From: Rathayibacter oskolensis
GTDB taxonomy: Bacteria > Actinomycetota > Actinomycetes > Actinomycetales > Microbacteriaceae
NCBI RefSeq assembly: GCF_900177245.1
Contig: NZ_FXBM01000002.1
Coordinates: 434,001-498,000 of the forward strand
DNA length: 64,000 bases
Direction: 5' to 3'
Positions 14,868-23,520 of the stretch are shown one piece after another (position 1 is the first letter of the stretch; each line of letters begins with the position of its first letter). The translations under genes were made by a program, and so were the position numbers. Below the pieces are notes generated by a model, which had not been told where the DNA came from, made no database searches, and saw only the letters and a program-made list of their open reading frames with translations.

Positions 14868-16742
14868 ATGGCGAAGGCGGTCGGTATCGACCTGGGCACC
14901 ACGAACTCGGTCATCGCGGTCTGGGAGGGCGGGGAGGCGAAGGTCATCCCCAATGCGGAGGGCGCGCGCACGACCCCCTCCGTCGTCGCGTTCACCGACA
15001 CCGGGGAACGGCTCGTCGGGCAGCTCGCCAGACGGCAGTCGATCCTCAACCCCAAGGGCACCATCTCGTCGGCCAAGCGCTTCATCGGCAGGACGTTCGA
15101 CGAGATCGAGGAGGAGTCGAAGGCGGTCGGCTTCGACATCGTCCCCGGTCCGAACGGCGAGGCCAGGTTCACGATCCGCGACAAGCTCTCGGCGCCCGAG
15201 GAGATCAGTGCGCTCGTGCTGCGCAAGCTGGTCGACGACGCCGCGAAGTTCCTCGGCGAGAAGGTGACGGAGGCGGTCATCACCGTCCCCGCCTACTTCA
15301 ACGACGCTCAGCGCACGGCGACGAAGGACGCCGGCCGCATCGCAGGTCTCGAGGTGCTGCGCATCATCAACGAGCCGACGGCGGCCGCGCTCGCCTACGG
15401 CCTCGACAAGAAGGGGCACGAGACCGTGCTCGTCTTCGATCTGGGCGGCGGCACCTTCGACGTCAGCCTCCTCGACGTCGGCGACGGGGTGGTCGAGGTG
15501 CGCTCGACGGCGGGCGACACCCACCTCGGCGGGGACGACTTCGACCGCCGGCTGGTCGACCACCTCGCCGACGAGTTCCAGAGTGCGGAGGGCATCGACC
15601 TCCGGAACGACCCCCAGGCCCTCCAGCGCCTATTCGAGGCGGCCGAGAAGGCGAAGGTCGAGCTCAGCACCGTCAGCCAGACCCAGATCAGCCTGCCGTT
15701 CGTCACGGCGGACGCGGCCGGTCCGAAGCACCTGACCGCGACGCTCAAGCGCGCCACCTTCGAGAACATCACCGCCGACCTCGTCGAACGGTGCCTCGGT
15801 CCGGTGCGCCGGGCGATGGAGGACGCGAAGGTCACCGAGAACGACATCGACGAGGTCATCCTGGTCGGCGGCTCGACGAGGATCCCGGCCGTGCAGAACC
15901 TCGTCAAGCGGCTCACCGGGGGCAAGGACCCGAACATGACGGTGAACCCCGACGAGGTGGTCGCGGTCGGTGCCGCCATCCAGGCGGGCGTCCTGAAGGG
16001 CGACGTCAGCGACGTGCTCCTGCTCGATGTGACGCCGCTCTCGCTGGGCGTCGAGACGCGCGGCGGGGTGATGACGACGATCATCGAGCGCAACACCACC
16101 ATCCCAGCTCGACGGAGCGAGGTGTTCTCCACCGCTCAGGACAGCCAGGACTCCGTCGAGATCGTGGTGCTCCAGGGCGAGCGGGAACGAGCCGCCGACA
16201 ACCGCGTGCTCGGCCGCTTCACCCTCACCGGCATCCGTCCGGCGCCGCGGGGCGAGCCGCAGGTCGAGGTGACCTTCGACATCGACGCCAACGGCATCCT
16301 GAACGTGAAGGCGCGCGACAAGGACACCGGAGTCGAGCAGGGGATCACGATCAGCGGCACGACGAATCTCGACCAGGCCGAGATCGAGCGCATGGTGCAG
16401 GAGGCGGAGCAGCACCGGGCCGAGGACCAGGATCTGCGCGCGGACGTCGATGCCCGCAACGAGCTGGACGCCGCCGTCTACCGCGTCGAGCGCACGCTGG
16501 CGGAGCACGGCGAGTCGGTGCCGCAGCACGAGCGCGCGCGTGCCGAGATGCTGACCGGGCAGGCGCGCGACGCCGTCGGGCGCGAGGTCCCCGCCTCCGA
16601 GGCCCGCGAGCTGACCAGCGAACTGCAGCAGATGGACGCCGCGCTGTCCGTCGCTCGGGCCCCCGGCGCGTCCTCGGCCGAGGACGATTCCGACGACGCC
16701 GATTCCGACGACGTCGTCGACGCCGAGTTCGATCGACGCTGA
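14868..16742 (+). CDS. dnaK: Molecular chaperone DnaK (Hsp70)
   Basis: 624 aa, full length for DnaK. The nucleotide-binding domain begins [13 protein letters not shown] (phosphate-1), with [15 protein letters not shown] (phosphate-2) and the adenosine motif [12 protein letters not shown]. The substrate-binding domain ([20 protein letters not shown]) and helical lid follow, with the acidic tail ending VVDAEFDRR. It refolds proteins with DnaJ and GrpE and passes aggregates to ClpB. First gene of an eight-gene operon (11-nt gap to grpE, near-continuous overlaps after that). Actinobacteria normally carry another dnaK elsewhere, so this may be a second, stress-dedicated set; the window alone cannot show that. 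Confidence 0.97.
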
Positions 16743-16753
16743 GGGACCGTGTC

Positions 16754-21596: not shown

Positions 21597-21856
21597 CCGT
21601 CCGTCCCGATCCCCATCTGGCCGCCGTCCGCGCCGTGACGCCCCGCACGCCGGGTGCCTGCGAGGACTGCCTGGCACTCGGCACGCCATGGGTCCACCTC
21701 CGACTGTGCTTGACCTGCGGCACCGTCGGGTGCTGCGACTCCTCGCCGATGAGGCACGCACGAGCGCACGCCCTGCGCCACCGGCACCCGATCGTCCGCT
21801 CCCTCGAAGCGGGGGAGACCTGGCGCTGGTGCTACATCGACGAGGACTTCGCATGA
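21593..21856 (+). CDS. UBP-type zinc finger protein
   Basis: 87 aa, a single zf-UBP domain: CEDC, LCLTCGTVGCC and HARAHALRHRHP supply the Cys/His ligands, ending ETWRWCYIDEDFA. In eukaryotes this fold binds free ubiquitin C-termini; bacteria lack ubiquitin and the bacterial role is not established. Small zf-UBP genes are repeatedly found beside cNMP-domain FAD reductases like the one that follows, which suggests they work together. ATGA overlaps on both sides. Confidence 0.85.
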   Translation: MTVRPDPHLAAVRAVTPRTPGACEDCLALGTPWVHLRLCLTCGTVGCCDSSPMRHARAHALRHRHPIVRSLEAGETWRWCYIDEDFA

Positions 21857-23520
21857 CCGGGGGAGTCGGCTCCCCGGGCGTCGTCGAGGAGACTCCCGAC
21901 ACGCTCGGGGCGTTTCCCCGGCTCACGCCCGTGCAGCTGGAGGCGCTCGGAGCGGTCGGCTCGAGGGTGGCGGTCGTGGAGGGCCAGGTGCTGGCCCTCG
22001 CGGGCGAGTCCCCCTCCGCGTTCTTCGCCGTGCTCGAGGGCCGGCTCGCGGTCGCCGAGGGGGAGCGGGTCGACATCCACGGTCCCGGCCGCTTCGCCGG
22101 TGACATCGGGCTGCTGGAGGGGCAGCCGTCGTTCGCGACGATCACCGCGGTCGACGACGGCACCGTGCTCGCGGTGCCGGTCGAGGCGCTCGAGAGGATC
22201 GTGACGGGCGACCCGCTCGTCGGCGACGTCGTCCTGCGCGCGTACCTCATCCGCCGGTCGCTGGCGATCGGGTTCGGCGCGGGGCTCAGGATCGTCGGGT
22301 CGCCCTTCTCTCCCGACACCCGCCGGCTGCTCGACTTCGCCGCGCGGAACAGGGTGCCGCACCGCCTCCTCGACGTGGAGCGCGACCAGGGCGCCGAGGT
22401 GATCCTGCGGCGGGCGGGGCTGGATGCAGCAGACGTGCCGGTGGTCGTCGTCGCCGGTTCGCGACTCCTCCGGAACCCGTCGGTCGCGGAGCTCGCGGAG
22501 GCGCTGGGCATGCGGAGCACCCGGCCCCCGGCGAGCACCGACCTCCTCGTCGTCGGCGCGGGGCCGGCGGGTCTCGCCGCCGCCGTCTACGCGGCCTCCG
22601 ACGGACTCTCCGTGGTCCTCACCGACGCCGTCGCGACCGGCGGCCAGGCGGCCCTGTCGGCGCGGATCGAGAACTACCTCGGATTCCCCTCCGGGATCCC
22701 GGGTGCGGAGCTCGCCGAGCGCGCCACCCTCCAGGTCGCGAAGTTCGGCGCCACGCTCGTCGCCCCCTCGGCCGCCCAGAGCCTCCGTGCCGACGGAGGG
22801 GTGCTCGAGGTCCGCTTCTCGGACGGATCGGTCGTCTCTCCACGGGCGGTGGTGATCGCGTCGGGCATGCGGTGCAACCGCCTCGATGCGGTGGACCTCG
22901 ACCGCTTCGAGCACACCGGCGTCCACTACGCCGCGACGCTCAACGAAGCGCGCCACTGCGGCGCGGCCGGGGTCGTGGTGGTGGGAGGCGGCAACTCGGC
23001 GGGGCAGGCCGCCGTCTTCCTGGCGGGCACCGCGTCGCACGTCCATCTGGTCGTCCGGGGGCCGGACCTGGCCGCGAGCATGTCGCGCTACCTGATCGTC
23101 CAGGTCGAGGATCATCCCCGCATCACGGTGCATCTGCGCACCGTGGTGGTCGAGGCGCGCGGCGAGGACCGCCTCGAGTCGATCGTCGTCGAGCGCGCGC
23201 CCTCCGGCGCGCGGGCGGAGCTCGCCGCGGCGCACCTCTTCGTGATCGTCGGGGCGACACCGGCGACGTCGTGGCTCGGGCCGGAGTTCGACCGCGACGA
23301 GCGCGGCTACCTCGTCACGGGAGCCGGCACGTCCGCGTCGGGGGCGAGCAGGCCCGCCCTCGAGACGTCGGTCCCCGGGGTCTTCGCGGTCGGAGACGCG
23401 CGCAGCCGGTCGGTGAAGCGCCTCTCGGCGGCGATCGGCGAGGGCGCCGGCGTGGTCCGGATGGTGCACGACCACCTCGAGACGGGGGGCAGTCGACGGG
23501 CGGAGACGTTCAAGGCCTGA
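21853..23520 (+). CDS. cNMP-binding / thioredoxin-fold / FAD-dependent reductase fusion
   Basis: 555 aa, three modules: a cyclic-nucleotide-binding-like beta barrel (about 20-135, PSAFFAVLEGRLAVAEG), a glutaredoxin-like segment (about 143-215, GSPFSPDTRRLLDFA) and a thioredoxin-reductase-like flavoprotein with FAD site GAGPAG (235-240), NAD(P)H site GGGNSA (378-383) and FAVGDARS. The redox CxxC expected before the NAD(P)H site is missing: only Cys369 stands there (RHCGAA), and the Grx-like segment has CPFS-like spacing without Cys. It may therefore reduce a partner (for instance the Trx encoded two genes upstream) by a different route, or act on another acceptor. Last gene of the dnaK operon. 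Confidence 0.88.
   Translation: MTGGVGSPGVVEETPDTLGAFPRLTPVQLEALGAVGSRVAVVEGQVLALAGESPSAFFAVLEGRLAVAEGERVDIHGPGRFAGDIGLLEGQPSFATITAVDDGTVLAVPVEALERIVTGDPLVGDVVLRAYLIRRSLAIGFGAGLRIVGSPFSPDTRRLLDFAARNRVPHRLLDVERDQGAEVILRRAGLDAADVPVVVVAGSRLLRNPSVAELAEALGMRSTRPPASTDLLVVGAGPAGLAAAVYAASDGLSVVLTDAVATGGQAALSARIENYLGFPSGIPGAELAERATLQVAKFGATLVAPSAAQSLRADGGVLEVRFSDGSVVSPRAVVIASGMRCNRLDAVDLDRFEHTGVHYAATLNEARHCGAAGVVVVGGGNSAGQAAVFLAGTASHVHLVVRGPDLAASMSRYLIVQVEDHPRITVHLRTVVVEARGEDRLESIVVERAPSGARAELAAAHLFVIVGATPATSWLGPEFDRDERGYLVTGAGTSASGASRPALETSVPGVFAVGDARSRSVKRLSAAIGEGAGVVRMVHDHLETGGSRRAETFKA

Follow-up and report, generated by a model that had tools for sequence, protein, structure and literature searches.

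Within a 64,000-nucleotide window of the Rathayibacter oskolensis genome (contig NZ_FXBM01000002.1, positions 434,001 to 498,000) lies a run of eight genes, dnaK-grpE-cbpA-cbpM-clpB-trx-zf-UBP and a terminal flavoprotein gene, which we interpret as an extra Hsp70-Hsp100 disaggregase operon that moves laterally among Actinobacteria and ends in an exchangeable thiol-redox tail. This reading is drawn from sequence comparisons, and we put its probability at about three in four. It is supported by the recurrence of the gene set, here called the module, across sampled genomes of the class, by the separate lineage to which its DnaK belongs, by the lack of recognisable HspR sites, and by its presence on plasmids of several genera.

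The eight genes all lie on the forward strand, and their coordinates and overlaps, taken from the list of open reading frames and from the sequence itself, bear out the order and close packing given in the original prediction; domains were assigned with Pfam and NCBIfam. The first gene, dnaK (14868-16742), matches Pfam HSP70 and NCBIfam models, and sequence identities and a DnaK tree place its product in the module group. It is followed after 11 nt by grpE (16754-17218; Pfam GrpE) and, after a further 4 nt, by a gene with a GTG start (17223-18167) for a J protein of CbpA-like make-up, a J domain plus DnaJ_C with no zinc-finger domain among its Pfam matches. The next gene (18164-18481) overlaps cbpA by 4 nt, encodes a CbpM-like protein (Pfam MerR_2, 48.1 bits, above the cut-off of 29), and occupies the position of hspR in housekeeping dnaK operons. 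The product of clpB (18472-21114; 10-nt overlap with cbpM) exceeds the cut-off of the full-length ClpB equivalog TIGR03346 (1303 bits against 1232, over residues 6-864) and falls below the cut-offs of 1900 for both ClpK (762.5 bits) and ClpG (754.3 bits). The thioredoxin encoded by trx (21111-21596; Pfam Thioredoxin) likewise exceeds its equivalog cut-off (TIGR01068, 102.6 bits against 96.8), and bears two N-terminal CxxC pairs, zinc-ribbon-like and resembling those of TrxC, in addition to WCGPC. In a survey of such thioredoxins, 25 of 26 have WCxPC, the exception being a partial match in L062, and 25 of 26 have the two N-terminal pairs. A UBP-type zinc-finger protein (21593-21856; Pfam zf-UBP) and the flavoprotein (21853-23520; Pfam cNMP_binding and Pyr_redox_2) complete the set, each of the last three genes overlapping its predecessor by 4 nt. 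The names CbpA, CbpM and TrxC express similarity only, as the scores fall short of the equivalog cut-offs (198.6 bits against 403 for PRK10266, 29.2 against 138 for NF007617, and 108.9 against 125 for PRK10996, respectively).

The eight genes form a recurrent actinobacterial locus. Close relatives of the flavoprotein (E <= 1e-175) are present in 30 of 394 sampled genomes of the class; 17 of these keep seven or more of the eight genes contiguous and in unchanged order, and 12 keep the complete set in this way, so that the juxtaposition of redox genes and chaperones is conserved in relatives of the window locus. Ten further genomes have the chaperone block at some distance from the flavoprotein gene, up to about 7 kb away in one fetched stretch in six (L062-L066 and L068) and about 3-5 kb away in four (G223, G260, G345 and G389), giving a separation of no more than about 7 kb in 27 of the 30. 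The chaperone block was not seen beside the flavoprotein in the remaining three (G236, G165 and G478); the G165 contig is 4.2 kb long, and G236 has trx and the flavoprotein gene with a dnaK fragment, cbpM being on another contig. A profile of module CbpM proteins finds matches in 44 of the 394 genomes (E <= 1e-14). The 41 neighbourhoods covered (all but G236, G239, G290 and second CbpM matches in some genomes) without exception contain dnaK-grpE-cbpA-cbpM, and in 39 of them clpB is in the fetched stretch. Only trx follows clpB in L165, L166 and L170, and in L177 a UBP gene stands in the place of clpB. The closest relatives found in a search of genome contigs are in Diaminobutyricibacter (L001) and in a Subtercola metagenome-assembled genome (L002), with flavoproteins 71-73% identical to that of the window; L002 has all eight genes, and L001 lacks the UBP gene. 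As a separate observation, a UBP gene adjoins a cNMP/TrxR-like (TrxR, thioredoxin reductase) flavoprotein gene without chaperones in L045 and L079, which may reflect an older pairing.

In the carriers tested the locus is a second copy, apparently additional to the usual set. All 17 carrier genomes, which are relatives of the window, encode a further full DnaK above the family cut-off, so that for these carriers the contrary case envisaged originally, that the module might be the only dnaK locus, does not hold. All 17 likewise have a further ClpB-like match of at least 1145 bits, although in G001 and G316 this second match is below the ClpB cut-off and covers positions 147 onwards. In a tree restricted to Actinobacteria, 31 module DnaKs and 13 housekeeping DnaKs are divided by a branch with 100/100 support; identities are 0.72-0.99 within the module group and 0.56-0.64 between module and housekeeping proteins. 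One locus (L097, in G471) holds a second module-type DnaK, 78% identical to that of the window, in a genome that also carries a module.

The upstream regions also differ between the two groups. HspR-associated inverted repeats (HAIR) were sought in the 400 bp upstream of dnaK, allowing up to 3 mismatches of 14. Such a site is present at 14 of 14 distinct housekeeping dnaK loci but at none of 31 module dnaK loci, the window included, with the reservation that in modules with a gene before dnaK the scan may miss the operon promoter; in the window the entire divergent promoter region (14675-14867) was scanned. The housekeeping count derives from a comparison list in which 15 of 16 entries were positive; the sixteenth, L097, belongs to the module group, and L013 and L018 represent a single locus. 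Nor does an exact copy of the half-site TTAGCACTC of the controlling inverted repeat of chaperone expression (CIRCE) occur within 350 bp upstream of the window dnaK. The reported lack of both elements therefore stands, and ordinary HspR control, which would have spoken against a distinct locus, is not what these promoters suggest. On the far side of the divergent promoter region a gene on the reverse strand (13007-14674) encodes a PucR-type regulator, with weak GAF, GGDEF-like and PucR HTH_30 matches in Pfam. Divergent relatives of this gene are 62-68% identical in L001, L002 and L077 and 34-40% identical in L005, L009, L051, L053 and L055-L058; its product is a candidate for the regulator of this operon. 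In many other modules a gene for a YflT-type general stress protein precedes dnaK, while some have both YflT and PucR, and some neither. The promoter region also contains a 13-nt repeat (14774-14786 and 14825-14837), which was considered as an operator and dropped, the second copy being unrecognisable in L002 and L077, so that at most one of the two has a recognisable counterpart there. To the left of the PucR-type gene lies a gene for an AAA_16/TPR protein by Pfam (10489-12966, reverse strand); a 65% identical relative is found directly downstream of the module and flavoprotein gene in L001, as a relocated neighbour.

Evidence of movement comes chiefly from plasmids. Of 72,556 plasmid records, 21 contain module-type cbpM, and these come from Rhodococcus (15), Streptomyces (2), Nocardia (2), Gordonia (1) and Arthrobacter (1); these are not all independent, because the Rhodococcus DK strains look like sister strains with the same plasmids. 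Seven of the 21 are typed as mobilizable, one as conjugative and 13 as non-mobilizable, so that eight fall in the first two classes. Five of the first six plasmid stretches that were read have all the genes annotated in order, and on the sixth the UBP gene was neither annotated nor found by tblastn. Between Nocardia and Gordonia the copies share 96.5% DNA identity over 6.9 kb and a flank that is 99% identical over 2.3 kb, and between Nocardia and the named Rhodococcus copies the identity is 91.5-93.7% over about 9.6-9.8 kb. In Gordonia an IS3 transposase gene comes after clpB. The L077 module is a mosaic: its genes from dnaK to cbpM are nearest to the window group (best identities 0.91, 0.81, 0.81 and 0.75), and its clpB, trx and flavoprotein genes are nearest to those of L069, L073 or L059. 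Within L077 clpB the two ends separate these lineages and the conserved middle does not. A search of phage records with the flavoprotein gave matches in 30, none of which spans 80% of the query.

The modules also keep company with other stress genes. A tblastx comparison of the flanks proved too noisy on its own, and protein queries were used after it with tblastn. Near 25 genome modules these found YflT 14 times, Hsp20 10 times and DUF1931 eight times; PucR was found near 10, of which the window is one and itself a query source, leaving nine of the 24 others. None of the four was found near any of 17 housekeeping dnaK loci. HtrA-like proteases are present in six of nine plasmid loci (three of the six being query sources), and FtsH, M48 and PsiE are each annotated once near plasmid modules. 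Queries for YfdX and HdeD had no tblastn match in the window, and those for USP, GroEL, GroES and YfdX had none near 34 actinobacterial modules, although the zero for USP may reflect divergent queries.

The terminal flavoprotein combines a cyclic-nucleotide-binding (CNB) domain, a glutaredoxin-like middle domain in which SPDT stands for CxxC, and a TrxR fold that has no CxxC; where TrxR chains of the PDB carry their CxxC, members of this family have AAT or SAT. A nine-row profile of the middle domain picks out the mycobacterial glutaredoxin Rv3198.1 (2lqo; E 1e-4, 25 bits), presumably the protein called mycoredoxin, with SPDT replacing CGYC. The assignment is a moderate one, because the window sequence by itself matches 2lqo at no better than E 0.91, ranking behind an rRNA methyltransferase (E 0.027). 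Relatives differ in the SPDT stretch, where single cysteines can occur, while a CxxC is seen in none of the 30 rows printed out of 32. CNB domains have a phosphate-binding arginine; the stretch concerned was found in 20 of 32 rows, and none of these has an arginine where it would be expected. An AlphaFold2 model of the flavoprotein from a three-row alignment had a mean pLDDT (predicted local distance difference test) of 30 and was not used.

Several observations weigh against a mobile module with a functional redox tail, and are best taken together with the explanations that they favour. The locus might be an ordinary lineage-specific paralogous chaperone operon, vertically inherited, patchily lost and without real mobility. 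The window locus itself is probably chromosomal: the window holds two tRNA genes and an open reading frame which we take to be RadA-like, and insertion of the module at a tRNA was rejected, no copy of the tRNA-end 14-mers being found in the window. The L001 module is on a 1.66-Mb contig, and in the DnaK tree the window forms one group with L001, L002 and L077. The module is scarce and patchily distributed in the family to which L001 belongs, because only five of 150 sampled genomes have the flavoprotein at 660 bits or more and in just two of these, G001 and G125, do chaperone genes adjoin it; in G024 and G056 the contig ends beside the flavoprotein, and G070 has no chaperone genes in 17 kb. 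The PucR gene is missing from many modules, the contrast in stress cargo leans towards the module group because the queries came partly from plasmid module copies, and none of three Hsp20 queries has a tblastn match in the window. Purely vertical descent would nevertheless have to accommodate plasmid records in five genera, the near-identity of the Nocardia and Gordonia copies, and the mosaic L077, and we consider it very improbable. A more limited objection is that trx, zf-UBP and the flavoprotein gene are co-transcribed passengers which serve another process and share nothing but the promoter. The tail is absent from the plasmid stretches L143-L145, which have the five chaperone genes only; it is detached in L062-L066 and L068; and the UBP and flavoprotein genes are neighbours without chaperones in L045 and L079. 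Correlations of pairwise identities are also looser across the junction: 0.87-0.91 among dnaK, grpE, cbpM and clpB and 0.78-0.86 among trx, UBP and flavoprotein, but 0.57-0.79 between the two sets, trx being nearest to the chaperones and UBP and flavoprotein reaching 0.57-0.76 (cbpA, for which several cells were not computed, forms a case of its own at 0.69-0.73). Against this, the contiguity of the flavoprotein gene with the chaperones in 17 of 30 genomes, and its proximity in 27, make a passenger role unlikely. The variability of the tail and the identity correlations therefore point to a unit made up of a chaperone core, dnaK-grpE-cbpA-cbpM-clpB, and a redox cassette that is commonly joined to it but can also be separate or missing; they do not support the original picture of eight genes as one indivisible unit.

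The remaining alternatives concern single proteins. The flavoprotein could be the real reductase of the thioredoxin beside it, acting by an unusual single-cysteine route. It does adjoin a CGPC or CAPC thioredoxin, and a cysteine a few residues beyond the position of the TrxR CxxC (AATxxEAxxC, with small variations) is present in all 32 module-type flavoproteins surveyed and, as C369, invariant in nine aligned ones. The CxxC itself, however, is found at the TrxR position in none of the 32, the L001 protein has a single cysteine in the whole matched region, and the window protein, at 191.6 bits, falls short of the 343.45 set as cut-off for the TrxR equivalog, which renders this route improbable. 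Because the CxxC is missing from both the TrxR and the middle domain and the CNB arginine was not found in the rows that cover its stretch, a role as an NAD(P)H/FAD-dependent sensor or adaptor is more likely for the flavoprotein than thioredoxin reductase activity, and its earlier description as a flavin reductase gives way to this domain composition. The CbpM-like protein, for its part, might act in the manner of HspR and repress its own operon through another operator. By profile it does lie between CbpM and HspR: its gene is in the place of hspR, the GLHP stretch of HspR is kept, and nine HspRs score 22-35 bits with the module profile, near the 40 bits of a Trichormus CbpM. Yet the rows shown have other residues where HspR has YDR and RRYS, the HspR model NF047375 gives only 25.5 bits against a cut-off of 105, no HAIR site is seen at modules, and relatives are annotated as CbpM in plasmid records; repression of this kind seems to us quite unlikely.

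Returning to the interpretation as a laterally moving disaggregase operon, a working scheme can be proposed. DnaK, GrpE and a J protein recruit ClpB to aggregates and activate it, and the DnaK, GrpE and CbpA-like J protein of the module would do the same for its own ClpB. By analogy with CbpM, the CbpM-like protein probably holds back the J protein until stress arises. The operon is probably transcribed from the promoter shared with the divergent PucR-type regulator, outside HspR control. Thioredoxin would maintain the cysteines of freed clients in the reduced state, with the flavoprotein as a putative NAD(P)H/FAD-dependent sensor or adaptor, and by analogy with transmissible stress loci (tLST) the chaperone block may confer heat tolerance and the tail oxidant tolerance. 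More speculatively, Actinobacteria may own transmissible stress loci apart from tLST, with a private HspR-free Hsp70-ClpB machine and a detachable oxidant module whose flavoprotein, with its CNB domain, mycoredoxin-like domain and TrxR fold both lacking CxxC, is a new redox sensor that reads the NAD(P)H/FAD state and gates thioredoxin or the disaggregase; this fuller proposal is tentative and, taken whole, less likely than not. The flavoprotein is in any case a caution against taking every TrxR fold beside a thioredoxin for its reductase, and the natural modules with and without a tail offer a comparison for what the redox cassette adds to protein rescue.

Elsewhere in the window, two genes about 5 kb apart on the reverse strand (41839-42687 and 47834-48664) are similar, as judged by their starts; we take both to be short-chain-dehydrogenase-like.

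The locus can be compared with the actinobacterial dnaK-grpE-dnaJ-hspR operon, with which it shares gene types and a similar order of the first four genes; it differs in the group to which its DnaK belongs, in a J protein without a zinc finger, in a CbpM-like protein for HspR, in the lack of HAIR, and in the attachment of clpB and redox genes. A partial prior mention exists, in that a figure legend describes a 'heat shock island' of DnaK, GrpE, CbpM and ClpB in Propionibacterium freudenreichii JS9 and JS20 (PMC5644110); the word thioredoxin does not appear in the main text of that paper as accessed, which makes no link there to plasmids of other genera. Among the literature matches listed, in a search that most subscription papers lie outside, no description of the eight-gene locus or of its plasmid spread was found. 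Plasmid stress arrays beyond Actinobacteria also join DnaK and ClpB to cargo of the tLST type: Trichormus plasmid C (L140) carries groESL, Hsp20, thioredoxin, DnaK, two YfdX, a J protein, CbpM and ClpB, and an Azospirillum plasmid (L142) carries PsiE, HdeD, GrpE, DnaK, ClpB, Hsp20 and DegQ. Both resemble the module in having DnaK and ClpB, here with Hsp20, and L140 also in its J protein, CbpM and thioredoxin; their gene order is different, and their DnaKs are 62-63% identical to that of the window.

Mobile stress tolerance is known, from the parts of the literature seen, mainly from Proteobacteria and with the stand-alone disaggregase ClpG (PMC8290217, PMC8129007). Tail conservation, the second dnaK, the absence of HspR sites and plasmid carriage, some of it on plasmids typed as mobilizable or conjugative, make the comparison with tLST drawn in the original prediction an apt one, so that its overall reading survives in part, without the indivisible unit and the reductase. 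As far as the available text of those reports goes, both kinds of locus are found on islands or plasmids, both combine an AAA+ disaggregase with thioredoxin in genes distinct from the housekeeping copies, and some relatives of the window locus have Hsp20 nearby and, by annotation, HtrA-like proteases, M48, FtsH or PsiE. They differ in that the window locus has DnaK, GrpE, a J protein, CbpM and ClpB where tLST has stand-alone ClpG or ClpK; in the absence of a match to the YfdX query at 34 actinobacterial loci (KefB was not searched for); and in zf-UBP and the CNB/TrxR-like flavoprotein, which are missing from the tLST1 gene list as seen in PMC8290217. By this analogy the locus is like tLST in its logic without being a member, carrying as it does the Hsp70-dependent ClpB and not ClpG. 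The same ordered set on plasmids of several genera suggests that actinobacteria may exchange a stress-tolerance kit of their own. If the locus works as outlined here, they would be transferring a whole Hsp70-dependent disaggregase and redox cassette across genera, outside the HspR control of the host, and mobile disaggregase-plus-thioredoxin loci would then seem to have arisen more than once.

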